The notes: a model not told the origin generated them from the letters alone. DNA of 64,000 nt from a virus (IMGVR_UViG_3300005098_000017:62001-126000); one strand, 5' to 3'; counted from the stretch's first letter, positions 12 through 64,000 are shown. Numbers and translations: made by a program.

Positions 12-779
12 ATGAAGGAGGTTGGTAATGTCATTATAGAACTATCCTTATCAGGAGTTACGTATAAGAGCGTCGAGGAACTGGCGGCTATATGGGGAGA
101 TTATCTAAGCGCGCGCCATATAATAACATATGATAAAGCCGGCCGGCCTATAACGCCTCTATCAGAGAACCAGAAGCACTTTATCAAAGCTGTACAGGAA
201 AATGATATTACGTTTGTAATAGGCCCCGCCGGAACTGGTAAGACATATCTTGCTGTTGCACAGGCTGTGGGGATGTTAAGAAGCCGCCAGATAAACAAGA
301 TTGTAATAACGAGGCCTCTCGTTGAGGTTAATGAGAAGTTGGGGTTCCTGCCAGGGGATATAAAGAACAAGGTAATGCCATTCCTTATACCAATATATGA
401 TGTACTTGGGGAACTCTTCACCAAAAGTGAGCTTGAAAATTTAGAGAAGAATGGTGTTATCGAAATTATTCCTATTGCATTCATGCGTGGGAGGACTATA
501 AAAAACAGCATCGTTATTGCTGATGAGGCACAAAACCTTACGATTTCACAGATGAAAATGTTGCTTACTAGGATTGGGTTAGGTACTAAATATATCATTA
601 TAGGAGATGTAACACAGAGTGACATACATAATGGTAAAAAGAATGGGCTTCTTTATGTTGTTGAGCGCATAAAGAGGGCGGGAAGCCGTGGCTTCGGCAT
701 CGTTAAAATGACAGATGCCGACATAAGACGGCACCCTATTATAACAGAGGTGCTCAAATTGTTTGATAATTTGACTTGA
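12..779 (+). CDS. phoH: PhoH-like ATPase
   Basis: PhoH-family P-loop ATPase, 255 residues from the ATG at 12. Walker A is GPAGTGKT at residues 71-78, Walker B is IVIADEAQN with D171-E172, and the body between them is typical of the PhoH family (RNA helicase-like NTPases common in phages). About 70 residues precede the P-loop. The frame stays open to the window edge upstream of the ATG (Lys-Lys-Leu), so the true start may lie outside the window and the N-terminus may be incomplete. The AAGGAGG at 15-21 lies inside the gene and would serve an ATG in another frame that soon meets a stop. The role in phage infection is not settled; phosphate starvation or RNA metabolism have been proposed for the family. 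The family call is secure. Confidence 0.93.
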   Translation: MKEVGNVIIELSLSGVTYKSVEELAAIWGDYLSARHIITYDKAGRPITPLSENQKHFIKAVQENDITFVIGPAGTGKTYLAVAQAVGMLRSRQINKIVITRPLVEVNEKLGFLPGDIKNKVMPFLIPIYDVLGELFTKSELENLEKNGVIEIIPIAFMRGRTIKNSIVIADEAQNLTISQMKMLLTRIGLGTKYIIIGDVTQSDIHNGKKNGLLYVVERIKRAGSRGFGIVKMTDADIRRHPIITEVLKLFDNLT

Positions 780-23930: not shown

Positions 23931-23931
23931 T

Positions 23932-42100: not shown

Positions 42101-42460
42101 GTGTTCCACATGGGTCAGGATGGAGCGCCGCGGCTTATGAGAGATACAACACTTGCCCAGCCATTTAGTTCATTGAGTGCGCTAACCCACCTAGCTGTGT
42201 TGCTGCGTATTAAGCAGGGATTTATAAGAAGGCTGCGGCCTCATATCGGTAAGATCGTTAACGCTCAGACGAAGATGGAGGTTGATGCAGCTATAACATC
42301 CGAGTTGGCACTATGGCAGAAGAGTGGGATTATACAGCAGGCTATAGTTGATATTGATTGGGCAAGTCTTGAAGGTACATTGGGAGTATTACCAGTGCAT
42401 ATTACGATTGTGAGATCACCCATTCTGAAGGGTGTTGAAATAGATATTGTTGTGCGGTAA
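39176..42460 (+). CDS. Tail sheath protein
   Basis: 1094 residues, ATG 39176 after ATAGGAGTGGGG. The N-terminus (GVLIIGTATDGPTNEPVIVR) and the C-terminus (WLP-like SALTHLAVLLRIKQGFIRRL, then a final beta hairpin HITIVRSPILKGVEIDIVVR) match contractile sheath proteins, with a large surface insertion in the middle. Sheath subunits contract to drive the tube through the cell envelope. The gene defines the phage as myovirus-like. A terminator follows 26 bases after the stop. Confidence 0.85.
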   Translation: MPRDIRVRFRPTLVTPQIRGGFPTLGVLIIGTATDGPTNEPVIVRGLEEAQEIFGNLGEGTLLEGYHEFITGASRGADLRTVVGLMRLDFGEYASVELPEPSTGTGLSEPMGATALTIRARYKGEIYNMFTISYKAVAGGFAVSIVVPAEKDPSGKSQEYVLLCDPSGSNTELINNLTELANAINHHPVLARWLYAEVNLLDSRYSTYISNGFYSGAGESFNAWGVGYNDTDKVIDFVSRFSGSPSSDVLDSGGDDTLGQYHPYTIFGTTPVNVRATSLDNIQNIRNFGKLALYDVSVDANTKIANLGVYPLIQTKAGATKFYPISAYNDYDDDGMYIDVPNYLRNWDTPATAKYLIPGRFPVSEAVFYMDVILNPSGASGDVNYVETNMFLPVDVYGDVSLANLINASSVSDTRRFSYKWIIQTEAGTVYDSGASTYTGWMLPLFHSPMSSIGGLILFHQKDGSPVDELDTIFGSWKYLYLGVPSQVGGSAPDWYSTTPDAATLKLIDTGDSEKVHIGLGPASAFFTKTDVTSHYGNETSPDENYTNAINTDVKDFDGSYSGNEFKLYYSTDGSSWHEIPLYYEYDGKYCSGLTLEWTFNGQTDLAALTDLNTFKIKFFDGITWSSEDDPEIKEIQSKYPFLEVAKDTSTGEYYLVIAAGTRIRLTGYTPKVMLKYLPSRAALNDWYEYTVYQDRIEFGTPYPYTIKFKVHYLKEFVENVDYIYDSAQGTFQMLDSELIPPDKLTLLYMDYQFEPEWFDTSRIYTLSGGSSGFERARPLEYYAKFRTALQAISTDDRFDIIVPKGAYIDTVDEVYDASISSTTYVNVGYVDLFDEFTQKRADDGNPTIVILAAEPYKPETAIVGYTREGIANWVTRMTDTTSIDPRSPAGLIASVTDNPMMCVTVVPIALIAPGGAYYISDGAAFLAGLAARFHYVPRTAANESLYNLALPNGVRPAFRLSESQVDALLNMRYIVFHMGQDGAPRLMRDTTLAQPFSSLSALTHLAVLLRIKQGFIRRLRPHIGKIVNAQTKMEVDAAITSELALWQKSGIIQQAIVDIDWASLEGTLGVLPVHITIVRSPILKGVEIDIVVR

Positions 42461-47528: not shown

Positions 47529-47905
47529 TGAATCTTATACGTATTAAGTATGAGGATACCACCTATGAATTTAATTATCCCACCCTATTTGATTACTACT
47601 TGTTTATTGATGGTCAAAAAGTTCGGGTATTTGATCGCCTCGCATTAAAGGATTATAGTATTCCATCAATTAAGAAGGTGCGCATTATAACCATCCTCTT
47701 TCGTCACTTCCCCGCCTTTGCTACAGAGGATGAGGTATTTTCCAATATACCGGATGCTGGTGGTTTAATTTATTTAATACGGGTGTTTGGATATAAACCT
47801 CACGAATTATTGCAGTTAAATCCTTATGAGCTTGATTTTGCGGTAAGGTTGGCGGAATATATAAACAATCCAAAACTAGAGAATGACAGTAGTCCGCAGG
47901 AATAA
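47528..47905 (+). CDS. Hypothetical tail assembly chaperone candidate (125 aa)
   Basis: 125 residues, coupled to the previous gene (TAATG) and overlapping the giant gene by 23 bases. Small mixed protein with FRHFPAFATEDEVFSNIPDA and a helical end (HELLQLNPYELDFAVRLAEY). Candidate second chaperone for tape measure folding by position only. Confidence 0.55.
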   Translation: MNLIRIKYEDTTYEFNYPTLFDYYLFIDGQKVRVFDRLALKDYSIPSIKKVRIITILFRHFPAFATEDEVFSNIPDAGGLIYLIRVFGYKPHELLQLNPYELDFAVRLAEYINNPKLENDSSPQE

Positions 47906-50900
47906 GCCCTTTCTTTTCCAGAGTGATTTAGCACGCATACGCACAGATGAGACATTGCGCAGCCGTTATGGGTGGGGTCGTACACTTTTGCGTTTTGGAG
48001 TGGCGATGGCTTCCTTTGCTGTTTTGTCTTATGGTGCGCGTTCCTTATCGCGTGCATGGCGTGCATTGGCCACATCTGGAGCATTATCACGGAAGTTTGT
48101 TGAAGGCGTTAAGGTAGTAAAGAAGTTAGGGCTTGAGCAGGGTAACTTACTTGATGTAATATTATCAGTATCTAGGCGTGCGCGTCGAGTTGCTTATAAA
48201 TATGTTAAGTGGTCGCAAGATTATAGGGATGCGTCGCGGCTTCTGCATTTTGGTAAGGCATTAAGGAAAATATGGAGCGGTGGTAAAGCATCATTAAAGG
48301 GTTTTAGGAAGGCGCGTGAGGCTTATCGACGGGTTGGATTACGAGGTGCATTGTTTGGTGCCTTTTTGCGTGGTGCAGAAAGAGGTGTTGGATTTGCGAT
48401 TTTATCTTCGGCTGCTGATGCATTAACACATTCATTTATAACACCTGCGGATAGAGAGAAGACAAGAAAGTATGGTCCTGTTGCTCGTGTGAAGCGTTTT
48501 TTCACTGATGCTGTCCTATTTAGTGGATTACAAGGACTTTGGGGTGTATCAAAAGTTGCCTTTCCTACCTATATACATAGGTATAGCCCACAAATACAGC
48601 GTTTTCTTACCCGCATTGGAGCGCCTACTTATGTGGCTAAGTTTTATGGATGGAGGCGTCGCTTCTATGATTATCTAATTCGTGCTATAGAATATAAGCA
48701 GAAGTTTACTCAGAAATTGCAAGGTGCTAATATATGGCAGCACATAAAGCAGCAGATGAAGGAGCATCCCGGGTTAGGTGCTATTGCAACCTATTTGCGG
48801 GAGCAGATAAGGGAAGCTCATCTACATGCTAAGAAATCGTTTAGGAGGCCGGGTGGATTTCCACCAAGGAGTGGTTATGATACAGTTATAACAATGATGA
48901 ATTATGCGAAAGAGGTTAATGTTAAGGATCCTAAGTTTGCAGCGGAGATTGCAGCTCAAGCTGTTGGACGTTATAAAGGTGTGAGTAAGTGGCGGCGGCT
49001 TCTTAATATCGAACGTGAAAGGTTGACCAAGAAGCAGGCTGTTGCTTTCAGGGAGATGCTTGAGAAAATGGGGTTTAGCAAGTCATGGATCGAGACATTA
49101 AAGGGGGAGGAACGCAAGTTTTATGAGAATCTGTATTACCGTGTGATGAGGGGACCATTGTTCCATGGTCCCGGATGGTTTGAAGTAGCCGGGCAAAAGT
49201 TTTCACAGTATGAGACGCGTTATTTTGTAAAAAGAATTCTCCAGAATCTATATGCTGGTCGATGGAGGGGGGTTACACGCATTTTGGCTTCTGCGGCGGG
49301 CTTAGACCTCTATGCCAACCGCAGACCTGTATTTATCTTCCATCCTACCATGGATATTCCGATGAGCGTTCCTATACCGACTGATGAGGGTGTTCGTATG
49401 CTACGCTTGGTAACCGAACGTGGTAATGATCGGGTTCGTCATGGGATTGTATTCTTACAGAATAAATTGTACAGATTATCGCCAACGGAGGAGGGTGGTG
49501 AATACTTTGTGGATAGGGTTATAGAGAATGTTAAATTATATGAGAGCCCGGCTTATAACATATTAAAGAGGGAGTTAACGCAGTATTATATCAAGCAGAG
49601 GCGGCGCACGGATGAGATAGGTTTGCGTCCACCAGGTGAATATGTTAGGGATATAATCAGGAAATTATCGCGGGGTGTTGATAAGGCTAGCTTAGAGGAA
49701 TTGGTTAATGTATATAAGTCAACCCGTTCGACGGCCCATATTATCTTTGGTAAATTGTTATCAAAGAAGGAGGTCCGTGAGGTTGCATCGCAGATCTTGG
49801 AGCAATTAGGCGCGAGTAGAGCGCAAAGGATCTTGCAGATGGATGAGGCATCATTAATCAGGGAACTTGAGAAGGTTATAGAAAAGCCTGCACAAGTAAC
49901 AGAGCGGCTTCGTAACAAGTTTATCTATCTTATAAACGCATCACGGAGTAGGATGAGGACTATGAAGGATCTTTTGAATCAGGAGTTTATAGGTTCTGGA
50001 TATGCAGAAGCACGGGCTAGGCATGTTATTGAGTCGTTCTTAATTGAGCAGCATTTGACACCAGAAATAAGGGCGAAATTCTTTAGCAGGCTTGCTGAGG
50101 AGCAGTTGATCGGGAAGTGGATAAGGAAGCCGGCTTATACACATTTCTTCAAAGCATTAGCAGAGCTAGCACCTGTTGAGATGGATGCAGAAGCTCTAAG
50201 GTCTACTATAAAGGGCGCGCTTAATGATATTGTAGTCGGTTGGAAAAAATTACCTACAGTTGATCCATTTAGGCCGATATCTGCCTTATTCCAGTATGGT
50301 GGATTGGGTATCCACAGGTTATTTGAACCTACCATAGAAGGTATACGGGTAATGGGTACTACAGTACCATTTACTGTTGTTAGAGAAGGTATGAGTCCAT
50401 TTAAACGGTATACGGTAACAAGTTTATTGTTTTCCCATCACTTACGGCGCATATGGGGATTTATGGATTATGTAAGCAAAGCTCCTCGCAAGTTTCCTAT
50501 TATCAGGCATTTATTAAGGCGATTAGACCCTAGATTGGCTGATACGGCGCATATCTTTCCATTTGAGACTAATACTACTGGTTGGACGGCTTCAGATATG
50601 ATAAAGAATTTATGGAAGCCGGCGGCTACATTATTGGCATTAGGTGTAGGATATAAGGCTGTTGATACATTCTTTGATGAAAGTGGTTTATTTGAAGGGA
50701 CTGCATTAGGAGAGGGGTTGACACCTGCTATACTGGATGCATATGCATTAGGTCGTCTTTCTTTGGCAAGAGTATTGGATATTGCAGGTGTAACTGATGC
50801 AGCGCGGTATTTAGAGGGATTAATGCCGGGGTCTATGACATGGTTACCAGGTGCACTATATGGCGTATGGAAGTTTGCACCTGCGGGGCCGGCGGCTTCC

Positions 50901-53714
50901 GCTATGGGTGCATTAATAATGGGTGCTGTTAATAAAATGTTAGCGCCATTTTTGCCTGATTTAACAAAGAGTTACGATCAGCTGAAGAGGATATATAGAG
51001 GTGAGGAGTATGTGCCTGTAAGGAGAGCAAGGTATTGGCCTTTATCTTTAACCCCTTGGGAGGGTTATGATATTGAATATTGGCGGCCTTCTCTATGGTT
51101 CATTGTAAGACAGCAGGCAAAATATACTCCTGATATAAGTGGTAGCAAGATACAATCCTTATTACAGGGTGATTGGTTATTTGGATTTAATCCATTGCGT
51201 GCATTTGATCCATATGCTAAAGAGAGGCAACATTATTTCTCTAGGCCGGCGCCTCTCACACAGTTGCCATTTTGGGATGTGCCAGTTATAGGGCCGTTTT
51301 TAGCTTTAACTGTTGGGCAGGTATTGAAACCACAGCAGATGATGCATACAGCCTTTTTGAAGGAGATGTATCCCGGTGAGTATGGTGTGCCGAAGGGTGA
51401 AGTTGTCACACCGGAGGATTTATCTAATCCTGATCAATATGTATCAGCTATGCAATCCAATCAAGCTGTTGCAATGTTAATGAATAGATATGCGGGGCGG
51501 GCTTACAGGCATGTCACAGGAGATATGCTTAATAGAGGTATAACAGAAACTCTGTATAGATCGATGGAGATGGCGGGCTTAAGAGGTTACCTAACATCGT
51601 TATTATTAGGAACACAGACACCGCTTAATTTCAGTAGGTACCTAGAAATGTATGGTGAGAACGAAGGGTTTTTATCTGAATACTGGAACATGGAACTTAA
51701 TGATGTAGCTGGTGGGTTATCTGAGATGATAAGAAGATTCCGGCCTGACAAGCGGATAAATACAGTTAACCCTATCCCCAACCTTATGGCACAATTTTTA
51801 CCCGAAGGAGAGTATGGTGGTAGCGATTTTCTACATGGTGATCCTTATACTAAAATTCCTATGGGTTTCATAAGATTGCCGGGGACTGGATATGAGGCAA
51901 CACATAATGTAATGCATACATTTCCTGCATCGTTAAGAATGTTGGGTAAGACAGTAACAGAGATAAGGGACATTATGGCCGGGTGGGAGGATATTATTGA
52001 GGAGAGAACGGAGCGGGAGCTAAATAGATTTTATGATGCTAAGAAGATTGTGCAGGGATTGCTTGAGATATCAGGACAGAATGTTGAGATGGATGTGCAG
52101 ATTTACGATCCATATAACAACATTGTTGGTACCGTTGATGCAGTTGTGAGGAGAGGGCGATTTAGGCAACCTATTATTATACGTCCTGTTAGTGAGGAGG
52201 AATTTAGGGAGCTTGTTGCCCCGAAGGAGGAGCATGCGAGTCAGGTAAATTTTGCTATGAAGTTTTTTGGTGCGAAGACGGGTAAGTTGATTTATGTGAA
52301 TGTAAGATCGCCTGAACAGATTAAGACATATACCATCTTTTTTGATCCATCAAGGTTAAGAGAGGATATAAGTGCATTAAAGAGGGCGAGGGAACAGGCT
52401 GGTGAGTTGTTAAGGGCAGGAGCTGTTTTTGATTATGGTCGTAGTTATAGCTGGTTTGATAGATATAGAATTTTAGCTGATGTTGCTCCTTTATCTGATC
52501 AATATAAGCAGGCGCGTGCTATTATATTGAAGCAATTGCAACAGGGATTTTTGCCACCTGAGTTATGGGATGAGGTGCATGAGATTGAGCGAAGGCGGCG
52601 GCTTCAGCTTTTAAAATATCCTATGTATGTGCGTCGTTTTACTGGTGAAAATGTTGTTGAAACGGTGCAGAAGCTTTTGCATCCGCCCAGGCTTTCCGGC
52701 AGGGAGTTATCGCTATCTTTGAATCCATATTTAAGGTCGCCTGATGAATACAGTTTACCAGAAAGGATCGTAGGTAGTATCTGGGAGACATTTACACATT
52801 TACCAACACCTTATAATAGGAAATTCTTTTTCCAGTACTCACCGTCAGAGATTTATAAGTATTTCCATTTATATGATCGGGAGTATAAAGCATGGACGCG
52901 GCCTATTGAGGATTGGGTTAAGCCGCAGGTTAGGACGATGCTTGCTTCACAAGGCGTAATGGAGGGCGTGGCTTCATGGGCTACAGCAGGTTATGCTGTT
53001 GGTAGGTTATACGGCGGGCTTATAGGTGCAGTGGCTGGATCCATATATGGGTTGATACCTAAGCCGCCGATGATACCGGAGGATGTGGAGAAGGCGCGCG
53101 AGGCTTATTCGTATTATGATAAATTGAAATATGCACGTAACATGCAGTTTTATGTTATGACAGGTAATAGAATATATGAGGAGCGTGCTGAGCGGACCTT
53201 ATTGGGTGCGAAGAACTTACGTGATTATGTAAGAGCATTACCACGTTTTGAGCGCCCATTTACTGTAGCGTTTATGAACATAACTGATGAGAGTGAAAGA
53301 GAAAGGATAAGGCAGATTATATCACCTGAGGCGCGTCGTGCCTTGGATGCAGCATGGGCGAGACGTGAATTGCGGTATAGTGTTGAAGAAGGTGGTTATG
53401 AAGAGGTACCGAGAACACCAGCTAATTGGGCTGGTTGGATTTTTGCGATACCTGATGAGGATATTTATGTGAAGGAGCTTGAGCAGCGGGGTGTTGATCC
53501 TCTAGATTTTGGTTATGGTTATCATGGTCAGGCAGCTGCTGTACGCCGTCTATCTGAAGATTTTGCTATACCTGATCAGACGGTAGATGTAGTCAATATT
53601 ATGGATGTACAGGAAACAATAGTCAGGTCATTGCAGGCGCAGGGTATTAGTGCTTCTGTATCCATCATGGGATTTGATAATAGTAGAAGAGTTGATGTCG
53701 TTATTTATAAATAA
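47883..53714 (+). CDS. Giant virion protein, probable tape measure (1943 aa)
   Basis: 1943 residues, ATG 47883. Strongly basic helical N-terminus (VRRNKPFLFQSDLARIRTDE; SRRARRVAYKYVKWSQ), several hydrophobic Gly/Ala segments near 930-1040 (LWKPAATLLALGVGYKAVDT; AAGP-rich GALIMGAV) and near 1700 (GVASWATAGYAVGRLYGGLI). Near 1385-1490 is a Cas4/RecB-like PD-(D/E)XK fold pattern (GTVDAVVRRGRFRQPIIIRP, then EEHASQVNFAMKFFGAKTGK) whose catalytic E-x-K has become I-x-R. Size and place after sheath and tube fit a tape measure, although the nuclease-like domain is odd. An injected cargo protein is the alternative. Confidence 0.65.
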   Translation: MTVVRRNKPFLFQSDLARIRTDETLRSRYGWGRTLLRFGVAMASFAVLSYGARSLSRAWRALATSGALSRKFVEGVKVVKKLGLEQGNLLDVILSVSRRARRVAYKYVKWSQDYRDASRLLHFGKALRKIWSGGKASLKGFRKAREAYRRVGLRGALFGAFLRGAERGVGFAILSSAADALTHSFITPADREKTRKYGPVARVKRFFTDAVLFSGLQGLWGVSKVAFPTYIHRYSPQIQRFLTRIGAPTYVAKFYGWRRRFYDYLIRAIEYKQKFTQKLQGANIWQHIKQQMKEHPGLGAIATYLREQIREAHLHAKKSFRRPGGFPPRSGYDTVITMMNYAKEVNVKDPKFAAEIAAQAVGRYKGVSKWRRLLNIERERLTKKQAVAFREMLEKMGFSKSWIETLKGEERKFYENLYYRVMRGPLFHGPGWFEVAGQKFSQYETRYFVKRILQNLYAGRWRGVTRILASAAGLDLYANRRPVFIFHPTMDIPMSVPIPTDEGVRMLRLVTERGNDRVRHGIVFLQNKLYRLSPTEEGGEYFVDRVIENVKLYESPAYNILKRELTQYYIKQRRRTDEIGLRPPGEYVRDIIRKLSRGVDKASLEELVNVYKSTRSTAHIIFGKLLSKKEVREVASQILEQLGASRAQRILQMDEASLIRELEKVIEKPAQVTERLRNKFIYLINASRSRMRTMKDLLNQEFIGSGYAEARARHVIESFLIEQHLTPEIRAKFFSRLAEEQLIGKWIRKPAYTHFFKALAELAPVEMDAEALRSTIKGALNDIVVGWKKLPTVDPFRPISALFQYGGLGIHRLFEPTIEGIRVMGTTVPFTVVREGMSPFKRYTVTSLLFSHHLRRIWGFMDYVSKAPRKFPIIRHLLRRLDPRLADTAHIFPFETNTTGWTASDMIKNLWKPAATLLALGVGYKAVDTFFDESGLFEGTALGEGLTPAILDAYALGRLSLARVLDIAGVTDAARYLEGLMPGSMTWLPGALYGVWKFAPAGPAASAMGALIMGAVNKMLAPFLPDLTKSYDQLKRIYRGEEYVPVRRARYWPLSLTPWEGYDIEYWRPSLWFIVRQQAKYTPDISGSKIQSLLQGDWLFGFNPLRAFDPYAKERQHYFSRPAPLTQLPFWDVPVIGPFLALTVGQVLKPQQMMHTAFLKEMYPGEYGVPKGEVVTPEDLSNPDQYVSAMQSNQAVAMLMNRYAGRAYRHVTGDMLNRGITETLYRSMEMAGLRGYLTSLLLGTQTPLNFSRYLEMYGENEGFLSEYWNMELNDVAGGLSEMIRRFRPDKRINTVNPIPNLMAQFLPEGEYGGSDFLHGDPYTKIPMGFIRLPGTGYEATHNVMHTFPASLRMLGKTVTEIRDIMAGWEDIIEERTERELNRFYDAKKIVQGLLEISGQNVEMDVQIYDPYNNIVGTVDAVVRRGRFRQPIIIRPVSEEEFRELVAPKEEHASQVNFAMKFFGAKTGKLIYVNVRSPEQIKTYTIFFDPSRLREDISALKRAREQAGELLRAGAVFDYGRSYSWFDRYRILADVAPLSDQYKQARAIILKQLQQGFLPPELWDEVHEIERRRRLQLLKYPMYVRRFTGENVVETVQKLLHPPRLSGRELSLSLNPYLRSPDEYSLPERIVGSIWETFTHLPTPYNRKFFFQYSPSEIYKYFHLYDREYKAWTRPIEDWVKPQVRTMLASQGVMEGVASWATAGYAVGRLYGGLIGAVAGSIYGLIPKPPMIPEDVEKAREAYSYYDKLKYARNMQFYVMTGNRIYEERAERTLLGAKNLRDYVRALPRFERPFTVAFMNITDESERERIRQIISPEARRALDAAWARRELRYSVEEGGYEEVPRTPANWAGWIFAIPDEDIYVKELEQRGVDPLDFGYGYHGQAAAVRRLSEDFAIPDQTVDVVNIMDVQETIVRSLQAQGISASVSIMGFDNSRRVDVVIYK

Positions 53715-56700
53715 TGGCAGTTATAAGGAAAAAACATACATATTTGCGTACTTTTACACGCAGGAAGGAACGGGAGAAGGGCAACCGTTTTGCGAAGTTT
53801 GGACTGGGGGTTGCTGCTCTTGTGCCTATTGTTTATTTGGTCAGGGGGCGCGGCTTCGAAAGGCTACATGATTTTCTTAAGACCTTTGCTGAGGCTTCAT
53901 ATAAGAAAGAGGCGCGGGCTTCAGAAGCATCTCTATGGGCGTATGGGCCTCTTGATAGGATAAAAAAGGCATTCATGGATAATCCATTTTTGTCAGTACT
54001 GGGTAATGTTACCAAAAAAGAGGCACAGGGGAGATCTGTAAGGGAGGTATTGAATAAGTTAAAAGATATTGTTGAGCTTCTGCGTGAATATTATTCAGTA
54101 GCTGAAATAAGAAAATTATTTAATGAGGATATTATTCCTTATGCTGATAAAGCGTCTAAGCTTATTGTTGAGGAGGAGAAGCAATTAGTATATAAGTATC
54201 AGTTAATGTTTGAGCGGGCGCTTAAGATTCTCACGAGGAAGATTAATGAAAAAGGGTGGCTTCCGCGAGACCCATTTCATTTTCGTCTCCTAAGTAAGTA
54301 TTTACCACATAGCTACAAATTTGGATTGTTTTATGGTACGATGCCGAGTTTTTCGGCGCCTCTATTTGAGATTTCTACAGCTAGTGGGCAGTTTGCACAG
54401 ATTTTCCAAAGGGAGGTAAAGAATCTATCAGAAAGTGAGGTTTTACTTGGTCAACATGTTGAGCAGGTTATAAAAGATTATGTAAAAAAGCATGTGGTTG
54501 TGAATCCTGAGTGGGAGCTTGCTGCTAGTGAGGTGTTTAAGCATCTATCAGCTGAGGAGCATTTACAGGTCCGAAATCTTGTTACAAGAATTACAGAGCA
54601 GGTAGCTAAGTGGTTGCATCGTCATGCCGGTATTGATGCAACAGATTTGCCTGATGTGCATGTTGTTATAAAGGCGCAGCGTTATTATGATGTTCCTATG
54701 CTAGTTGCTCAGCTGTCGGTTGTTGATCTGCGTGGGGTCAAAAGGAGTATAGAGATCAAGCTTGGTGTTCCCCAGAAAAGTGGATTGATGGCAGCTATAG
54801 GAAATTATCCAACAGCAAATGTCAGATTTGCTCAAGGTAACAGGGTAAGGTCGATCTTTTCCTTGAAGCTGGAGCGCTTAGGCGAGATGTTTGAGCATGC
54901 CTTGAACGATTTATACGAAGGGAAGTCAGAGGATTATGTTACCAGACGCATTCATAGAATCATTGGACGATATGATTTATATGGAACTGGGCGTAATGAT
55001 AAAGCATTCCAGTTGGTGCATTCCATTGTTGATAAGGACTTTAAGGATTATGCGGCTTATAATGCTAAAAAGAGATTTTTGAAGCGCGCCGCTGAGTTGG
55101 TGCTTGGTGTGAGAAAAGGTAAGTATCGGGTGTTTATGGATGCTGAGTGGGTTATGGCTGGTATATCGAGTACTGGGACTCAATATGCAGTGACTGAATC
55201 CCGCCGGCGCTTGATATGGAGTTTTGCCATACAAGTTTTTGATGATCTTGGTAATGAGGTTGATAAGTTGGTTGTATTTATAGATCCGAAGACGATAAGC
55301 GATGAGTTCTTCATGTCGCAGGTGCGTCGTTTTGGATTATCAAAGGCAGCTGCTGAGGAGGCATTAAAAGCGGTTAGAGGTCGTGTTGCGATGCCTGCTG
55401 GATATGTCAGAGTTGATAGTGAGATGGAGGCCAGCCGGCTTATATGCAAGAAAATAAAAGACATAATTAATAAATATGGTAAGGATGATCTACTTGTTAT
55501 GGGTAAGAACTTCTGGAGCTCAGAGGTTGCATTGTTGGAGCGGGCCTTTAAAGCTGACAGTAATATATTAAATTATATCAAAAGAAAGTTAGTTGATATA
55601 GAGGATATATATAGGTTGGTATATGGTGCTAAGGCTATTAACAGGTCATTAAGTGTTGAGGCTATTCTCGATTATGTAAAGGTATCGGATGAAGGATCGA
55701 AGCTATTGGGCCGGCTTCTTAATTATGAACCGAGGGTTGAGGTCCAAGCGTTTGCTAATTTAGTTAGGTCGCTACATTTTGGTGAGCAAGATAACAGGAT
55801 TGCATACATCCTATCAAAAATTGCGGAGAGCATGGTTAATAATGATCCTGAGTTGCGTGAGAGAGTACTAAGGATTTATGATATTGTAGCGAAGTCACAG
55901 GGAGCTGTTTTATCATTTACAACGCAGCAGGAGTTCATGCAGCGGGCTTATAATTATGTAAAGGAGCAATTGAAATCTGTTGGTGTTGGTTCGCCTAATG
56001 CTGCGCGTAAGTGGCGTTTTGAATATCCGTTTAATCCAGCTGATTGGGTTCCGCTATTTGTTCCCACCTTGGAGAAACAGAGGTATCAGTTAGGCCGCGG
56101 CTTACCTTTATCGGAGGCATCGAAAAGATTGCTTGAAACTCTTAAGAAGGAATATGCTAGGCGCGTATTAGGGTTGGGTGAGGCTGATATCAATTATCTA
56201 GGACCGGCGCTTATTTCTATGCCATTTAAGAGATTCCTAGAACAGCAGATGTTATATAATGTCCGTAGTGTATTTACGATACCTGTCTTCTCAACATTTT
56301 TCCCATTTGCTGGCGAAGGACATATGTTTATACACAGGAGACTTACTGAGCTATCGACAGTAGTGCAGGAGGTGATTAGTCAGAAAATTCCGATAAGTAG
56401 GTTGGAGAATATGGATGCTCGTATGCAGTTGTGGGCGAAGCTTTTTGAATCTGCCATGGAGGCTGTTAAGACATCTCCGAAGCTGGGTGAGTTAATTAAG
56501 AGCAAATTTAATAATGATATTGTTAAGTTTTTGAGAGCTGTAGATTTGTCGATTGTTATTGGTAGATATCGTGGATGGATAAAGGATTCTGAGCGGTTGG
56601 CTAATGTTTTAGCGCAGTTGTTTCCGGGGTTTCCTATCAAGCGTTTTGTTGGTCATGCTATTGGTAGGAATCTAAGAGGTCTTACTATAAAACAGTATAT

Positions 56701-59700
56701 GGCATTGCGCCGCGGTGTGCGTGCACCAAAAATAAATTTGGGGGATATATGGAAGGAGATATTTAGCGACAAAGCAGCTGCTCATCCGTTATACGACATG
56801 TTGAGTAATGATAATATGTTGAAACTTGGATTGATGGATGAGTCTGCTCAGGCAGGTTATGCACAATGTGCATTAATAAGGGAGATCTTTAATAGATTGG
56901 TAGAATCGGGGCTTCATCTTACCAACCCAGAGCAGTACATCAAGTATGGTACTTTCGTAATGACGGACCGGCTTCAGCTTGGTGATAAGGTTGTAAAAAT
57001 TGGTTATAATGGTAAATTGGTTTTTAATAAGGTAATTACATCTTATGATCTTACAGGTATACCTTCATTAGATTTTTCACTTACCTATGAGATAGTTTTG
57101 CCAACCCCCTTAAAGTGGGTTACATATTATCAAAAAGGTATGGGGACAGCACAGCGCTGGTCCTTAAGTCAATTTCCGTATTATCTTATAGAGCCGGCAC
57201 GTTTTATGGAGCGTGGTGAATTGGGCATCTTTATAGAGACAGAGATGACCCGGCTAAAGGAGGCATTAATTAAAAAATATGGTGTGCGGGAAGCCGCCAA
57301 TGTTATGTCAAAGATGACAAAGGACCTCAATGATTATATGAATAGAGTGGTTAATTACGCTATTAAGGAGCACGGGCTTCCCATCAAACTTACCAGTCCG
57401 TTGTTTATATTCAATCCCAAAATGATGGCAATAGAGGGCAATTATGATTTGTTTAACACATTGACAACAGAACAAAAGGGATTATTGTGGACAGTATTTT
57501 TGGAGGGTTTACCTGAGAAGGTGGGAAAGATTGGTGGATATCCAAGCTTGTTTGATTATCTTGAGGCTAAATTCAAGGAGCATGGTATTGTTGTAACTCC
57601 CCAAGAAAGGAGGATATTCAGAAGATATGTACAGAAACAATATGCGTTGTATAAGAACAAAAAGATAAGCGAAAAGGAATTTTTTGAAACAGTCTTGCTG
57701 AAGGACATAGCTGATGAGAGGATACGAAACTGGTTTAGCAGATTATATTATGGAGATGATAGGGAGCAGCTGGCGCGCTTATTCGATATATATCAGATAA
57801 AATTAGGTAAAAGGGTTGTTGAACTTATTGGTTTGGGCCGTCATAGCCCCTTTGGGTTGGGTGATACGGCTCTAACTAGTACCTACAAAAGTTTTGTTCG
57901 TATACCAATGCAGATGTATTGGGATATCCATCGCTGGCCTCATTTGGAGGGTATGGCTCAATTTATTGATGCCTTCCAAGCTCAGAATCTACCTATTTAT
58001 GAGACACTTCTTAAGATGGCTGATATGCTAAAAATGAGTCAGTCATCTATTGATGAGTTGGTGAAGGCAGGGGGTATCTATGCTGTACCGGTGCGGCGCT
58101 TCTTTGACTTTGTGCGCAAACATATGAATCTTCTTAGGTCAATAAGGGAGGATATATATGTACCAGAAAAGATATTAGAGGAGGCTCATGGTGATATGGT
58201 TCGTGCTGTCCAAATGATGCTTGATCTGGGTGTATCGTTAACGGATTTTAAGGAGAATGCTATAAAGTTTGAAGGCGCGCAGGTCCGTGCGCAGGTTGCC
58301 AAGGAGGTGCAGGATTTCCTCAGACAGATATTTGAGGAGGCGCAAGGGAAGCGCGTTGTTATCGATGTAGGCAGGGCAATGTCTGTTTCCTATAAGAACC
58401 TTGAGTCGATGATTGGTCAGAATGATGCTATTATTAGGGATCTTATAAAATATTTAGAGAGAATGGGTTACAACAAGCTGAAGTATATACCATTGGGGAC
58501 AAGGGAATTTTGGGATCTGTCATTTCACCAGATTGGTAGAGACCAAGTTATTGTTGAGCCTCAGGTTAAGAAGTTGCTGCAATTAATGGCATCGATTGCA
58601 TCAATTAAGGGTAAGGTGCAAGCAACTGGTGTGCCATCGGCGCAGGTTAAATTTGAAGAGAGAAATGTATTTTATAAGCAGTTTGTTAATTATCTTGGTT
58701 CTATAGCTAGTAGCTTTATAGGCCGGCAATCCTTATGGGCACGCACTGCTGTAACACATCTTCCTGGTGTTGAGGGTGTTGGACTTCCGTCCTTCTTGCT
58801 TTTTAATAAGTCGCGGCTTCTTGACACAGTTGTATGGGAGCCATTTACGACCTATGTTGATGCTTCTGTTATTGAGAATCTCAGAGGTATGTTGGAAGCC
58901 GCCGGCTTCTCCAAAGAATTTATCGATGCTTTTTACAAGGGTAGTCCTAATGTAGCATTTTTAGGTATGCCCGGACGTATGCCATTCCACCCCGGTATGG
59001 GATTGATAGGATTTATAAAGAGTTTAACCAAGCAGCAGAAGAAACATGTTTCATCTGTAAGCGATGCTGTTAAAATATATATGGATCCTTTATTGATAAC
59101 GAAGGTTCTATTGGGTGACTGGGATACAGATAGATTGATGGCGTTACTAACAATGACATCTCCGAAGGGTGCTGAGGATATAACAAGGATATGGAAGTGG
59201 GTCTATGGTTTATCAGATCAGGATGTTGCATTTCTTATGTCGTATGGTAAGTTTAGAGCTGGTGACAGGAAGGCTATAGGTGAATTGCAGACATTTTTTA
59301 CGTCTGTTTTTGAGAAGATGACAAAAGAGCAGAAGGAGGCATATATACAGAGCAAAGAGTTTGAGGATATGCTCCACAAAAGATTATCAGCCATTGTTGC
59401 AAGAATGAAGGAAGGATATTTGAGCTGGTTTGGTAAGTCTGAGGCAGAAGAGTTAAGCGAGCGGGTCGAGTTTTTAGTGACAGGTGATGTGACGAAGATA
59501 CCGACAACGGAGGGTAAGGTTATTTATTTACCGACTATATTAGCGCAGATGCGTGGTTATACGATGAAGATTGAAAAAATGTGGCCGTTTATACAGGAGG
59601 CTAAAGAGATTGCGAGGAAGGAAGGAATTCCATTCAAGGAGGCGTTAGCTAAGCATATGGCTGACGTTTTTGCTAATAGGGAGCTTAGGAATGTACTGGG

Positions 59701-60775
59701 TACATCGATGGCTGGTAAAGCTGATGTGATAAGAACAGGGTATGCATTAGCATTGCAGCATATATATAAATTAAGAGCTGAAGGGCTTTCATATCAGGAT
59801 ATAAGTAAGATCATGGGATTAAGCATTCCAGAAGCATTTGGTCAAGTATTTGATAAATGGATGGCGGCGGGTTCTGAAAGACAGAAGATGATTCTCACAT
59901 TTGAAAGGGAAATACTCGATAAGGTATTAAAGATGAAGCGTGGTGGTTCTCCAGAGGCGATGGCTGAAGCAATAAATAATCTTGCTAATGAGTTGCTGGA
60001 GTATAGTAAGGTTTCATCATCTGTTGCGAAGAAAGGACATGAGTTAATAGATAAATTTGTTGCAGAAATTGATTGGGAGAAGATGGGATTGAAGCCGCGT
60101 GATGCTTTATACATGATGGGGTGGTTATTAAGAAACACGCAATGGACTATCCGTAATTCCAGTTATCTTGTTACGAGACAATCGATAAATAGAGGTCTTA
60201 TTGAAGCATATGCGATGTTTGCATCCCGTTTGCTGAGTCAACCGACGGGTCCTACGGTAAGCCCGACATTGTTAGATGCATTGTCGGGTGAGGTATTAAG
60301 GGGCATGGCAAAGGAGCCGAAGCCATTGAATGAATTACTTGGCGAGCAAACAGCAAATATGAGGTTTAGGGAGGCATTGGCGGGCTTCCTTACAAAAACA
60401 TTTGAGAATTTATCTAAATCAAGAAAACATAGATTGCTATTAGCAGGTGCATTGGCTGGGATAGCGGGATATATATTAAGCGGGCCGAAATTAAGAGGAG
60501 ATATATTTTCATTTGGTATCGATATAGGCACAGTGCATGGATTGGAGCCGAGCTTCTTTGATGGTAGATGGACATACCCTGAGTTGCCCCGAGGGGAGGA
60601 TATAAGGGGTTTGGAGAATCCATATCATAAAAGGAAAATTTATATTCTACGTAATATAAGGCGCAGGAACCCTGCATTATTTAATGAGTTAAGGAGGCGC
60701 GGTATAATTCAAGAGTGGGAAATGTCGGCGCCTTATGATTACCCACGCAGAGAAAGGAAGGTGATCTATGTATGA
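53714..60775 (+). CDS. Giant protein with beta-prime-like DPBB: candidate virion RNA polymerase (2353 aa)
   Basis: 2353 residues, TAATG overlap with the previous gene. Basic N-terminus. Near 300-350 is a possible PD-(D/E)XK segment (SVVDLRGVKRSIEIKLG). Residues 470-690 resemble a DnaQ/DEDD exonuclease (VFMDAEW with D476 and E478; LVMGKNFWSSEVALLERAF; EVQAFANLV), with the later acids changed. Around 1665-1810 the order FIGRQSLWARTAVTHLPG...GVGLPS, then FLGMPGRMPFHPGMG, then LLGDWDTDRLMALL follows the RNA polymerase beta-prime double-psi barrel, with D1802, D1804 and D1806 as the metal-binding DxDxD. Homologous single-chain virion polymerases are known in crAss-like phages. Polymerase identity is inference. 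Confidence 0.62.
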   Translation: MAVIRKKHTYLRTFTRRKEREKGNRFAKFGLGVAALVPIVYLVRGRGFERLHDFLKTFAEASYKKEARASEASLWAYGPLDRIKKAFMDNPFLSVLGNVTKKEAQGRSVREVLNKLKDIVELLREYYSVAEIRKLFNEDIIPYADKASKLIVEEEKQLVYKYQLMFERALKILTRKINEKGWLPRDPFHFRLLSKYLPHSYKFGLFYGTMPSFSAPLFEISTASGQFAQIFQREVKNLSESEVLLGQHVEQVIKDYVKKHVVVNPEWELAASEVFKHLSAEEHLQVRNLVTRITEQVAKWLHRHAGIDATDLPDVHVVIKAQRYYDVPMLVAQLSVVDLRGVKRSIEIKLGVPQKSGLMAAIGNYPTANVRFAQGNRVRSIFSLKLERLGEMFEHALNDLYEGKSEDYVTRRIHRIIGRYDLYGTGRNDKAFQLVHSIVDKDFKDYAAYNAKKRFLKRAAELVLGVRKGKYRVFMDAEWVMAGISSTGTQYAVTESRRRLIWSFAIQVFDDLGNEVDKLVVFIDPKTISDEFFMSQVRRFGLSKAAAEEALKAVRGRVAMPAGYVRVDSEMEASRLICKKIKDIINKYGKDDLLVMGKNFWSSEVALLERAFKADSNILNYIKRKLVDIEDIYRLVYGAKAINRSLSVEAILDYVKVSDEGSKLLGRLLNYEPRVEVQAFANLVRSLHFGEQDNRIAYILSKIAESMVNNDPELRERVLRIYDIVAKSQGAVLSFTTQQEFMQRAYNYVKEQLKSVGVGSPNAARKWRFEYPFNPADWVPLFVPTLEKQRYQLGRGLPLSEASKRLLETLKKEYARRVLGLGEADINYLGPALISMPFKRFLEQQMLYNVRSVFTIPVFSTFFPFAGEGHMFIHRRLTELSTVVQEVISQKIPISRLENMDARMQLWAKLFESAMEAVKTSPKLGELIKSKFNNDIVKFLRAVDLSIVIGRYRGWIKDSERLANVLAQLFPGFPIKRFVGHAIGRNLRGLTIKQYMALRRGVRAPKINLGDIWKEIFSDKAAAHPLYDMLSNDNMLKLGLMDESAQAGYAQCALIREIFNRLVESGLHLTNPEQYIKYGTFVMTDRLQLGDKVVKIGYNGKLVFNKVITSYDLTGIPSLDFSLTYEIVLPTPLKWVTYYQKGMGTAQRWSLSQFPYYLIEPARFMERGELGIFIETEMTRLKEALIKKYGVREAANVMSKMTKDLNDYMNRVVNYAIKEHGLPIKLTSPLFIFNPKMMAIEGNYDLFNTLTTEQKGLLWTVFLEGLPEKVGKIGGYPSLFDYLEAKFKEHGIVVTPQERRIFRRYVQKQYALYKNKKISEKEFFETVLLKDIADERIRNWFSRLYYGDDREQLARLFDIYQIKLGKRVVELIGLGRHSPFGLGDTALTSTYKSFVRIPMQMYWDIHRWPHLEGMAQFIDAFQAQNLPIYETLLKMADMLKMSQSSIDELVKAGGIYAVPVRRFFDFVRKHMNLLRSIREDIYVPEKILEEAHGDMVRAVQMMLDLGVSLTDFKENAIKFEGAQVRAQVAKEVQDFLRQIFEEAQGKRVVIDVGRAMSVSYKNLESMIGQNDAIIRDLIKYLERMGYNKLKYIPLGTREFWDLSFHQIGRDQVIVEPQVKKLLQLMASIASIKGKVQATGVPSAQVKFEERNVFYKQFVNYLGSIASSFIGRQSLWARTAVTHLPGVEGVGLPSFLLFNKSRLLDTVVWEPFTTYVDASVIENLRGMLEAAGFSKEFIDAFYKGSPNVAFLGMPGRMPFHPGMGLIGFIKSLTKQQKKHVSSVSDAVKIYMDPLLITKVLLGDWDTDRLMALLTMTSPKGAEDITRIWKWVYGLSDQDVAFLMSYGKFRAGDRKAIGELQTFFTSVFEKMTKEQKEAYIQSKEFEDMLHKRLSAIVARMKEGYLSWFGKSEAEELSERVEFLVTGDVTKIPTTEGKVIYLPTILAQMRGYTMKIEKMWPFIQEAKEIARKEGIPFKEALAKHMADVFANRELRNVLGTSMAGKADVIRTGYALALQHIYKLRAEGLSYQDISKIMGLSIPEAFGQVFDKWMAAGSERQKMILTFEREILDKVLKMKRGGSPEAMAEAINNLANELLEYSKVSSSVAKKGHELIDKFVAEIDWEKMGLKPRDALYMMGWLLRNTQWTIRNSSYLVTRQSINRGLIEAYAMFASRLLSQPTGPTVSPTLLDALSGEVLRGMAKEPKPLNELLGEQTANMRFREALAGFLTKTFENLSKSRKHRLLLAGALAGIAGYILSGPKLRGDIFSFGIDIGTVHGLEPSFFDGRWTYPELPRGEDIRGLENPYHKRKIYILRNIRRRNPALFNELRRRGIIQEWEMSAPYDYPRRERKVIYV

Positions 60776-60939
60776 AAATTATAGTTAGAGTATCACCAAA
60801 TGCAGATATTGTTCGTGTTGAAGCGGCAATACGTAATGCTTTGATGGCGTATGATTTAGATGTACGGTCGATACAAGTGGTAACAACAGCTTTCGGACAG
60901 GAGGAGTATGCCAGAGGACCCGAAAAAACCGAGGCTTGA
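60772..60939 (+). CDS. Small hypothetical protein (55 aa)
   Basis: 55 residues: MKIIVRVSPNADIVRVEAAI, a central region with DLDVRSIQVV, and an acidic end (EEYARGPEKTEA). The start ATG overlaps the giant gene stop (ATGA), and the 3' end overlaps the next gene by 32 bases; the alternating pattern suggests a small alpha/beta fold. No family is recognised. Real by its tight coupling on both sides. Confidence 0.6.
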   Translation: MKIIVRVSPNADIVRVEAAIRNALMAYDLDVRSIQVVTTAFGQEEYARGPEKTEA

Positions 60940-63900
60940 TTACAGGACAGCTATTATAGGTACTGTTCCTGTGATTGTTACAGATTTTAGAGTTGTTGAG
61001 AATTTTTCCTACCAGCAGATACAGACGCTACGTATGGATAATAATGTTATTTACCAGATACCCGGAAGGAATTTGTATGTTATTATTGGATTAGAATTTC
61101 CTGATGGTTATTCCATTAATACAGGACTGCGTGAGCTCCATGCCATGATGTTTCTTGCTTCCATTGTACCTATTTATAGTCCGTGGCTTAATGACATGGT
61201 TATTGCATCGTTTGATCAATATAGAGGGCTTGCTGAATTAATGGGTGTTAATACAGATGTAAACATTTATGCATTGCGTCGTTTAACGATGAGATCTGTT
61301 GAGTCGCCTTATGCTATTGGTGTTGAGATGGAGATTGCTCCCATGGATTTAGATGCGGCGCGGCTTAAACCCCAATTCCTTGTGGATGAAGAGGCAGCGC
61401 GGGCTAAATCTGAATTTATAGCGAGGTTGTTTGAGTTATATGAAACGATGAAGAGAAGTGAGGACCCGCTGGCTTATTTGGATGGCTTTACATCTATCTA
61501 CAATGATTACAAGAGGGCTGTTGCTAATAAGGTTGTCGACTTCCTATGGCAGTCAGAATTATTTAAAAGGTGGATAAGCATAATATATCCTGAGGGTGAT
61601 AAGTCACTTTTACCAGTTCAAGGGGTGCGGCTTAAACGGCAGCTTGGTATATGGAGACAAACGCCATTTGCTAATATTGTTATTCATTATCTTCATATGG
61701 CTGATGATATCGTATCGTTGCGAGATGAAATCCATAAGTATGTTTCAGATGTGGCTAGTAGTACAGCGAAAATGATCCGTGATTATGTAGCTGATTACGA
61801 ACAAATTCAGCAGGTTGGCGCGCCTCGACGATTTTTTCAAGTATTACAGACATTATATAATAGCATTAAAGGTGGCATACGCACCCGTGTTGATAGTTCA
61901 TTAATGGGTACTATAGCATTTGGCAATCAGATAAGAGAGATGTTACTTGAGGTTGCATTACGTATGGATAATGGGCAGAGAGGTAAGTTTACTAACTATG
62001 TGCAAAGGATTCTATCTCTGACGGCGGGGCCTAATCTAGTAGTCCCTGAGATGATGATGGAAGGTGAATCAGCTATTGTTACAATGTCTGATTTTCTTAC
62101 TAGATTTTTTGCGGAATTAGGTAAGAAGTTGGATACGGATTCATACAAAATTTTTGTTGATTTATTTGCTGATGTTATGTCTGAACGTATTGCGTATTGG
62201 GAGTTGTTTTCAAAGGTGATGAAATATGAGACATTTGATTTTGGTAAGTATCGTGCTACTCCAACCAGATGGGAATACACTGTGACTAATAAATTTGTAC
62301 CTCTGAGGATTGGTGATGCAGTAGCTCCCTTGTTGCAACATCTTGGTACTGACAGTCCTATATTTAGGGTGCAGTATGCATGTGGTGATGGTCTGGCCAT
62401 AAGGCAGCTAAAACAGTTAAGAGATGATGTTGATAAGGCTGTGCAACAGATAAATGAAATAGGGTCATATTTCCCTTGGATTACGAGATATATAGAGCCT
62501 ATAATATTATCCTCAACGGACGGCTTAATTGAATTTCTGGGCATGCAGCATGCGGTTTTAGATTCAGTAAGTATTAATCCGATGGAAGAAGCCGCGATGG
62601 TTGCTGAGGCTACATGTACATTTGTTGCCTCTGATATAACGATTTTTGATTACGAGCAGTTTGAGTTTGCCGATACTGTTGGTGCCAATAATTTATCATG
62701 TCTATTATTATTCTATGCATTGCGTAAATGGTACCAGGAAATTTTTGGCAAAGACCTTCCTCCGAGTGGTACTGTTGCAGAGACGGTGCAGCCATTAAAG
62801 GAAGGTGAAGATATTTCGAAGCTAAGGATTCCGTTTAAATTGTTTGATGTTATGGATTCACAGAATGTAACGAAGCGTGCATTTCAGTATGCGATGACAT
62901 TATCCAAAGCTGAGAATCAGAATTATTATAACTTCACTATCTATAATTCAGATAAAAAGGCTGTATATGCATTAAATGAGGGTGTGGTTACTAACGTAAC
63001 TAATAATCTGGTTGATGGTTATATAGTTCGTGTGAAAAACGGTGATTTTGTAACGGAGTATAGGAATCTGGGGAAATTGGCAGAGGATATTAAGCCGGGC
63101 GAAAAGGTGTTGGGTGGACAATATTTAGGGGAGGCGCGCTTCTTTGCTAGTGGAACATATCCAACCGAAGTACAGGAAAAAGAAGTTAAAATGCTACCTA
63201 ACCTATTAGGATTAGGGGTGCCTGAGGTTGTTCAAGAATACAAGAAGAAAGTAAAAACATCTGGTCCTGCGCCTTATGGGGTGTTTATATTATTTATGTA
63301 TAAAAATATTCCATTGGACCTAGAAATTTATAAAGGTAAGGAGGTTTTTGAAAAAGCAGCTAATATATCTGCGCCCACAGATATATATGCATATTTTTGG
63401 ACCCATACTAAGGATGATAAAATAACATGGGCTGGGCATACCTATGATGTGAAAAATAATCCTTATGTCCAAGGATATGTAAATAGTGTCTTAGGTGGGA
63501 TACCTATTTTAGAATCAATTTCGAATCGTGTTTTTGATGAGAAGACATTTTTTGATGTCCTTATTCGATTACTGATGGAGAAATGTATGACATGTGTATC
63601 GTCATTTGATATTGCTGGCTTGGAGCAGAAACTTGCAAATGAATTGGGTATGGAGCCGGCTTCTGCAACTGATAAAGCTGTTCCAACACAGGAGGAATAT
63701 GTGCCCGTTCTTGGCCGTCCATACTTTACCCACCCATCATTGGAAGAGATGAAACTACCAGAGCCACAATTACCTCCTAAGGTAACTCCGGCACCAGAGG
63801 AAGGAAAAATGGAAGTACCTGAGGAGAAAGTAGAGAAACCGCAGCTTTCTGCACCAAAAGAATTACCTGAGGAGGCCCCGCCAGTAGAGGTGCCGCCTAG

Positions 63901-64000
63901 TGAACCACCAATGATAGAAGAAGGTGAAAAAGAGGAGGGTGATCTTTTAAATAGACTCATAGCACGTTACATGGCGCTTGTATCGCAAGATATGAAATAT
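60908..64000 (+). CDS. Large virion protein, 3'-partial (at least 1031 aa)
   Basis: A frame open from ATG 60908 (GGAGGA 4-9 bases upstream) to the window edge with no stop; I checked the whole frame. Begins MPEDPKKPRLDYRTAIIGTV. N-terminal part is a beta-rich domain (FPDGYSINTGLRELHAMMFL), then a long helical region with many charged residues, then a Pro/Glu-rich linker near 63740-63950 (PPKVTPAPEEGKMEVPEE). No known motif. Possibly a tail, baseplate or cargo protein by position. Minus-strand open frames in this stretch are shadows. Confidence 0.72.
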   Translation, partial: MPEDPKKPRLDYRTAIIGTVPVIVTDFRVVENFSYQQIQTLRMDNNVIYQIPGRNLYVIIGLEFPDGYSINTGLRELHAMMFLASIVPIYSPWLNDMVIASFDQYRGLAELMGVNTDVNIYALRRLTMRSVESPYAIGVEMEIAPMDLDAARLKPQFLVDEEAARAKSEFIARLFELYETMKRSEDPLAYLDGFTSIYNDYKRAVANKVVDFLWQSELFKRWISIIYPEGDKSLLPVQGVRLKRQLGIWRQTPFANIVIHYLHMADDIVSLRDEIHKYVSDVASSTAKMIRDYVADYEQIQQVGAPRRFFQVLQTLYNSIKGGIRTRVDSSLMGTIAFGNQIREMLLEVALRMDNGQRGKFTNYVQRILSLTAGPNLVVPEMMMEGESAIVTMSDFLTRFFAELGKKLDTDSYKIFVDLFADVMSERIAYWELFSKVMKYETFDFGKYRATPTRWEYTVTNKFVPLRIGDAVAPLLQHLGTDSPIFRVQYACGDGLAIRQLKQLRDDVDKAVQQINEIGSYFPWITRYIEPIILSSTDGLIEFLGMQHAVLDSVSINPMEEAAMVAEATCTFVASDITIFDYEQFEFADTVGANNLSCLLLFYALRKWYQEIFGKDLPPSGTVAETVQPLKEGEDISKLRIPFKLFDVMDSQNVTKRAFQYAMTLSKAENQNYYNFTIYNSDKKAVYALNEGVVTNVTNNLVDGYIVRVKNGDFVTEYRNLGKLAEDIKPGEKVLGGQYLGEARFFASGTYPTEVQEKEVKMLPNLLGLGVPEVVQEYKKKVKTSGPAPYGVFILFMYKNIPLDLEIYKGKEVFEKAANISAPTDIYAYFWTHTKDDKITWAGHTYDVKNNPYVQGYVNSVLGGIPILESISNRVFDEKTFFDVLIRLLMEKCMTCVSSFDIAGLEQKLANELGMEPASATDKAVPTQEEYVPVLGRPYFTHPSLEEMKLPEPQLPPKVTPAPEEGKMEVPEEKVEKPQLSAPKELPEEAPPVEVPPSEPPMIEEGEKEEGDLLNRLIARYMALVSQDMKY

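Follow-up and report, generated by a model that had tools for sequence, protein, structure and literature searches.

Single-chain two-barrel RNA polymerases carried in the virion and fused to a giant tail protein are already known from Thermus phage P23-45. Its gp96, a protein assigned to the tape measure, contains such an enzyme with a DxDxD motif, is present in virions and transcribes the pre-early genes, including the gene of a second polymerase (PMC10770324). The same source points (its reference 18) to gp66 of the crAss-like phage phi14:2, also a giant single-chain two-barrel virion RNA polymerase, from another phage lineage (PMC10770324). YonO-type RNA polymerases likewise have two barrels and DxDGD on a single chain but are non-virion enzymes. 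The RNA polymerases of AR9 and phiKZ, myoviruses with virion RNA polymerase, are split over several subunits. In Bacillus phage 0305phi8-36, orf146 has been assigned to the tape measure, chiefly by tail length, and is described as such and not as a polymerase (PMC2147016). A review of jumbo phages mentions only a separate YonO-like gene for the 0305phi8-36 lineage (PMC7824862). We found no paper describing a tail-embedded RNA polymerase for this lineage; our literature search did not cover preprints or the supplementary survey of viral two-barrel RNA polymerases in PMC10770324.

The window analysed here, a whole stretch of 64,000 nucleotides, belongs to a 147-kb virus record. It encodes a giant protein, P0001. 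Very probably an RNA polymerase akin to the cellular enzyme lies within this protein and within its counterparts in dozens of related phages; an identical P0001 occurs in a 176-kb IMG/VR contig. Our preferred reading, to which we give a probability of about 0.78, is that P0001 is a single-chain two-barrel DNA-dependent RNA polymerase residing in the tape-measure-slot tail protein of a 0305phi8-36-like phage. Positional orthology, a conserved catalytic signature and the RNA polymerase fold of the family were established by computation; activity, virion location, injection and promoter specificity are inferred. The genes that define the setting are the following.

23842-26388: terminase large subunit
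29615-32035: portal protein
39176-42460: tail-sheath-like protein
47883-53714, + strand: P0002, 1943 aa, upstream virion gene, homologue of MTATph1 CDS0026, KLEB27-3 gp031/gp033 and ME3_35
53714-60775, + strand: P0001, 2353 aa, a candidate virion RNA polymerase on one chain, occupying what is presumed to be the tape-measure slot (intact reading frame; synteny)
60908-64000, + strand: reading frame leaving the window, which with its continuation (locus L139) occupies the baseplate-hub slot (blastp of the continuation)

The preliminary description placed P0001 with virion genes, and this is borne out: the gene lies directly 3' of the 1943-aa virion gene, and terminase, portal and sheath genes are found in the same window. 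Inteins apparently interrupt both the terminase large subunit and the portal protein, on Hint/Vint and Intein_splicing matches that fall short of the curated cut-offs, and the tail-sheath-like protein is unusually long at 1094 aa. Relatives of the terminase and of P0002 were found in Moorella phage MTATph1, Bacillus phage KLEB27-3 and Acinetobacter phage ME3; the ME3 record cites 0305phi8-36 as homologue for the ME3 structural genes. In each of these phages a giant gene is located 3' of the P0002 homologue (MTATph1 CDS0027, KLEB27-3 gp034 and ME3_36). Its DxDxD takes the form DYDGD in KLEB27-3 gp034, which is annotated as a structural protein, and DHDQD in ME3_36. The L139 continuation matches KLEB27-3 gp035, MTATph1 CDS0032 and ME3_37 by blastp. 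P0001 sits between P0002 and the hub gene, the position that defines membership of the 0305phi8-36-like tail-slot family. This slot is presumed to be that of orf146; the equation rests on PMC2147016 and gene order, and no orf146 sequence was compared.

The reading frame of P0001 is uninterrupted over its 2353 residues. As first proposed, it contains four segments in the linear order of the beta-prime subunit, GRQSLWARTAV, VGLP (residues 1689-1692), R1755-x-P1757 and DWDTD.

58706-59158, + strand: beta-prime-like double-psi barrel (DPBB-A), residues 1665-1815 (AlphaFold strands, pLDDT, Foldseek, motif order)
58721-58753, + strand: GRQSLWARTAV, residues 1670-1680, equated by eye with the family RGKxxGSR and with AR9 beta-prime GSRINFSARNVITP
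58967-59002, + strand: MPGRMPFHPGMG, residues 1752-1763, including R1755-x-P1757 (the beta-prime RxP); in two alignments neither R nor P varies
59117-59131, + strand: DWDTD, residues 1802-1806, predicted Mg-binding aspartates; Asp invariant in two alignments

Direct searches with P0001 (Pfam, PHROGs, PDB, phage tblastn, viral and genome contigs) assigned it to no family, and only the identical copy was of use. Weak Pfam matches to Sigma70_r4_2 and MerR lay under the cut-off and were disregarded. When P0001 was shuffled at constant composition, DxDxD appeared in 18% of the shuffles and R.P-28..62-DxDxD in 1.5%. Taken alone, RxP plus DxDxD in this one sequence is near chance, or barely beyond it; the motif cannot by itself carry the polymerase claim, and it is the comparative evidence that decides.

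Relatives were gathered via the neighbouring gene, without use of the motif in their selection. Viral contigs were scanned with alignments of the family of P0002, a conserved anchor, and not with the giant gene; more than 100 loci were obtained, and the gene following each P0002 homologue was then inspected. Motifs of the type [AG]DxD[GAK]D recurred in these genes. Of 73 distinct slot genes, 59 contained R.P-28..62-DxDxD, where shuffles predict 1.4; it was present in one of 81 upstream genes and in two of 35 downstream genes. RxP with DxDxD was found in 64 of 72 slot genes when a longer spacer was permitted. As a sequence pattern across positional orthologues, such a recurrence is far beyond chance. 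The DxDxD is positioned at about 70-82% along most complete slot genes. Two alignments, of 10 and of 56 members, keep only five core columns invariant: R, P, D, D and D. Because members without RxP were excluded from the 56-member set, this invariance is partly selected; the count of 59 in 73 is not. Scans of genome contigs yielded no relative.

Searched against the PDB, the 56-member profile matched first the beta-prime subunit of the AR9 non-virion RNA polymerase (E 0.0017, over 130 residues including RGKxxGSR) and second the phiKZ RNA polymerase, and the majority of its 46 matches were beta-prime subunits. A smaller profile gave the same best matches (E 0.014). These two systems have RxP, DxDGD and the GSR segment in common with the family, but here the enzyme would be one chain in a tail-gene slot. 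The profile of a short clade alone (A13) found no RNA polymerase in the PDB, so that the link in sequence between the family and RNA polymerases depends on the wider alignments. Among members scanned singly, three of ten matched PF00623 (RNA_pol_Rpb1_2, best E 0.0043) and two matched the RNA polymerase family phrog_2987 (best E 8e-4). A helical EQxxIxxKH motif is strongly conserved downstream of DxDxD in the family alignment A13, and P0001 as aligned lacks the His; it could be the equivalent of the trigger loop or bridge helix, without any structural assignment.

The core of one relative, L012, was modelled with AlphaFold from 26 sequences with a mean pLDDT of 71.9 and a pTM of 0.71, the pLDDT reaching about 90 for the barrel that surrounds DxDxD. 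Every one of the 50 PDB matches listed for this model is an RNA polymerase (best E 1e-4, with 70 matches under 0.001); TM-scores stay low, as the alignment covers the core alone. phi14:2 gp66 is absent among the fold matches listed. In a viral structure library the second match was ME3_36 (E 3.6e-8), whose model is independent of our alignment. Matches to other viruses included subunits of the beta-prime type and of the beta type (RPO132, Rpb2-like), as expected for two barrels. The model of P0001 itself (residues 1002-2181, 56 sequences) has low confidence overall, with a pLDDT of 54.3 and a pTM of 0.40. The barrel at 1665-1815 is its best-supported beta part: pLDDT is mostly 58-87 over residues 1671-1821, and the order of strands and helices is much as in L012 (strands at 1671-1678, 1712-1715, 1749-1755, 1766-1770, 1787-1790 and 1807-1812). 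The best 30 of its 49 PDB matches are largest subunits of RNA polymerases (best E 0.02, probability 0.84, none below 0.001). Since the alignment included the relatives, which may imprint their fold, this model is supportive and not independent. The preliminary description had taken P0001 for a candidate beta-prime-like polymerase, to be refuted if no barrel formed at 1665-1810 or if DWDTD sat on a helix. Strands are modelled there and DWDTD immediately precedes the last of them, so that neither refutation occurred, and the claim is supported by orthologues with the same signature, by the confident RNA polymerase fold of one of them and by the PDB matches of the P0001 model. The double-psi barrel with DxDxD and an upstream RxP, by which the two-barrel RNA polymerase superfamily is recognized, is present in P0001 and in the family.

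The alternative that survives best is that the motif is chance in this phage, whose slot protein would be an ordinary tape-measure or tail protein: the family would be an RNA polymerase, its domain lost or replaced in the divergent P0001. This is unlikely in our view, but it draws strength from the isolation of P0001, for which pairwise comparison with relatives gave no significant match and which scored no better than shuffles against a beta-prime-region profile built without it. Significant sequence homology of P0001 to the two-barrel superfamily was obtained in none of the family, profile and pairwise searches. Such homology is not strictly defining, as many two-barrel families have no detectable similarity beyond DxDxD (PMC10770324). 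The frequency of RxP plus DxDxD in P0001 shuffles also leaves room for chance, and the polymerase module can be lost, as MTATph1 illustrates with a slot gene that has an IS21 insertion and no polymerase part. In the absence of a significant match to relatives, the assignment of P0001 relies on its synteny, on the order and spacing of the motifs, on the model and on a C-terminal segment. Against the alternative, P0001 follows the family in gene length, in the order GR/VGLP/RxP/DxDxD, in the distance to DxDxD and in the C-terminal segment, and both the barrel and the top PDB matches of its model point to RNA polymerase. Aligned to the family with hhalign, P0001 gave its best match at DxDxD (P 0.0056), though one of 40 shuffles scored higher, a result that counts against our reading. 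The C-terminal segment, a further mark of the family, was recovered with P 0.0027 and a probability of 11.4, against a shuffle maximum of 1.3. It is hydrophobic and similarly placed in the 56 members examined (RKHRLLLAGALAGIAGYILSGP in P0001 versus, for example, NKKIALLGGLALGGVMGYNILS).

60434-60487, + strand: C-terminal glycine-rich hydrophobic segment LLLAGALAGIAGYILSGP, residues 2241-2258 (hhalign)
56972-57136, + strand: candidate second barrel (DPBB-B), residues 1087-1141, LQLGDKVV ... K1134-x6-K1141 (by eye against relatives)

A second-barrel segment with two lysines (GDxLG...KxxxGxKG) is significant across the relatives, about 430-570 residues before DxDxD. Its likeness in P0001, LQLGDKVVKIGYNGKLV...PLKWVTYYQKGMG (K1134, K1141), lies 668 residues before DxDxD and was recognized by eye, without statistical support. 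K1317/K1330, the second-barrel lysines of an initial alignment, were dropped for K1134/K1141 on pattern; neither pair is proven.

If P0001 is the polymerase that we propose, the barrel at 1665-1815 would hold the catalytic Mg through D1802/D1804/D1806, with R1755 contacting the substrate, and two lysines would come from the upstream beta-like barrel (candidate 1087-1141). The protein would be assembled into the virion, packed in the tail, and would enter the envelope or cytoplasm along with the DNA, aided by its C-terminal hydrophobic segment. It may then transcribe the pre-early genes, the first to arrive, before transcription passes to host polymerases or to later ones of the phage. Tail packing, entry and early transcription are inferred by analogy with P23-45 gp96. 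Our reading suggests that the phage lineage brings its own transcription machine into the cell via the tail, injection being inferred from position. Alternatively, the polymerase could be real and not injected: made late, it would act in assembly or late transcription and merely be encoded among tail genes. There is no direct evidence for P0001 in the virion, and the order of action of a candidate separate polymerase is unknown; but the structural annotation of the homologous KLEB27-3 gp034, the assignment of the slot to the virion tape measure in 0305phi8-36, the C-terminal hydrophobic segment of P0001 and the P23-45 precedent all count against this possibility, which we regard as quite improbable. 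A broader proposal goes beyond P0001, namely that single-chain virion RNA polymerases form the core of the tape-measure-slot protein across the whole 0305phi8-36-like lineage, that they are an ancient, widespread and as yet undescribed family, with long forms carrying a DEDD exonuclease, and that transcription begins at the tail exit during genome entry. We hold it to be only a little better than an even bet.

An N-terminal DEDD exonuclease domain is present in about 20 long-form members, as indicated by phrog_192 (best E 4.6e-9), by RNase_T in MTATph1 CDS0027 (E 1.2e-5) and L099 (E 5.9e-5), and by an iterative HMM search. In long relatives including L099, L005, L014 and L016, it lies on the same polypeptide as the RNA polymerase. 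The domain is solid in relatives; in P0001 it was detected neither by HMM nor by hhalign, and only remnant-like strings are visible, VFMDAEW (MDAEW at 475-479) and GKNFWSSE (597-604).

55121-55873, + strand: possible degenerate DEDD (DnaQ-like) exonuclease, residues 470-720 (by eye)

An IS21-type istA/istB insertion splits the MTATph1 slot gene (L004 23387-30743); on its two sides remain the exonuclease part (N-terminal) and the hydrophobic part (C-terminal), without any RNA polymerase core. It is very improbable in our view that the family's two-barrel polymerase does something else, whether RNA-templated synthesis, the making of primers or DNA synthesis of the PolD kind, with the fused exonuclease possibly proofreading. 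Archaeal PolD and RNAi polymerases are also two-barrel enzymes (PMC7281927, PMC7824862) and many long relatives do carry the exonuclease, but the nearest profile and fold matches are beta-prime subunits of DNA-dependent RNA polymerases, a family B DNA polymerase is already encoded in the virus genome, and the precedent for a virion polymerase in such a position, P23-45, is an RNA polymerase.

P23-45 is a long-tailed siphovirus, unlike the contractile-tailed phage described here. No sequence match to gp96 was found, and the layouts differ: the gp96 polymerase is N-terminal, with DFDGD at 779 of 5002, in contrast to the C-terminal-ward position of DxDxD in the slot genes, and no exonuclease domain is described for gp96 in the sections consulted (PMC10770324), whereas many long relatives here have one. 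YonO and phi14:2 gp66 had been named as precedents; the tape-measure-fused enzyme of P23-45 is closer (PMC10770324). As to the idea that a single-chain polymerase in a myovirus would be new, the single-chain form does look new in this contractile-tailed lineage; phiKZ-like myoviruses already carry multisubunit virion polymerases. If our reading of P0001 is true, tail-embedded virion RNA polymerases reach beyond P23-45 into a large lineage of contractile-tailed phages, of which ME3 and KLEB27-3 are cultivated, a function is found for giant proteins so far labelled hypothetical, structural or tape measure, and rifampicin-resistant early transcription is predicted in those phages. It also becomes testable whether it is common for transcription to be coupled to the entry of DNA via the tail, and RNA polymerases fused to exonuclease domains offer material on the evolution of two-barrel polymerases.

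PF05183 (RdRP/YonO-type) genes were found above cut-off in five of 19 related records, outside the slot, which parallels orf99 of 0305phi8-36 (RNAi-polymerase-like gp99, PMC2147016). A separate non-virion RNA polymerase besides gp96 is likewise reported for P23-45 (PMC10770324). In the present record, an 854-codon reading frame with KSPILPGD...GWDADGDKVALA (50581-53142, minus strand; L137:10581-13142:-) had no library match. On its motif only, this DADGD protein is a candidate non-virion RNA polymerase resembling RNAi/YonO-type enzymes. The initial statement that no other RNA polymerase is present is correct for the window proteins scanned, but this candidate lies about 9 kb before the window start. 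Beyond ribosome-binding sites, the intergenic regions of the record contained no enriched motif other than a weak GTCAATTTAATG in three copies, a possible promoter on weak grounds. Two further genes combine domains: a phage ATP-dependent DNA ligase is fused with a LigD 3'-phosphoesterase-like domain (L137:1730-3718:-), and one chain encoded at 6300-8204 carries two glycosyltransferase domains, of family 1/4 and family 2 types.
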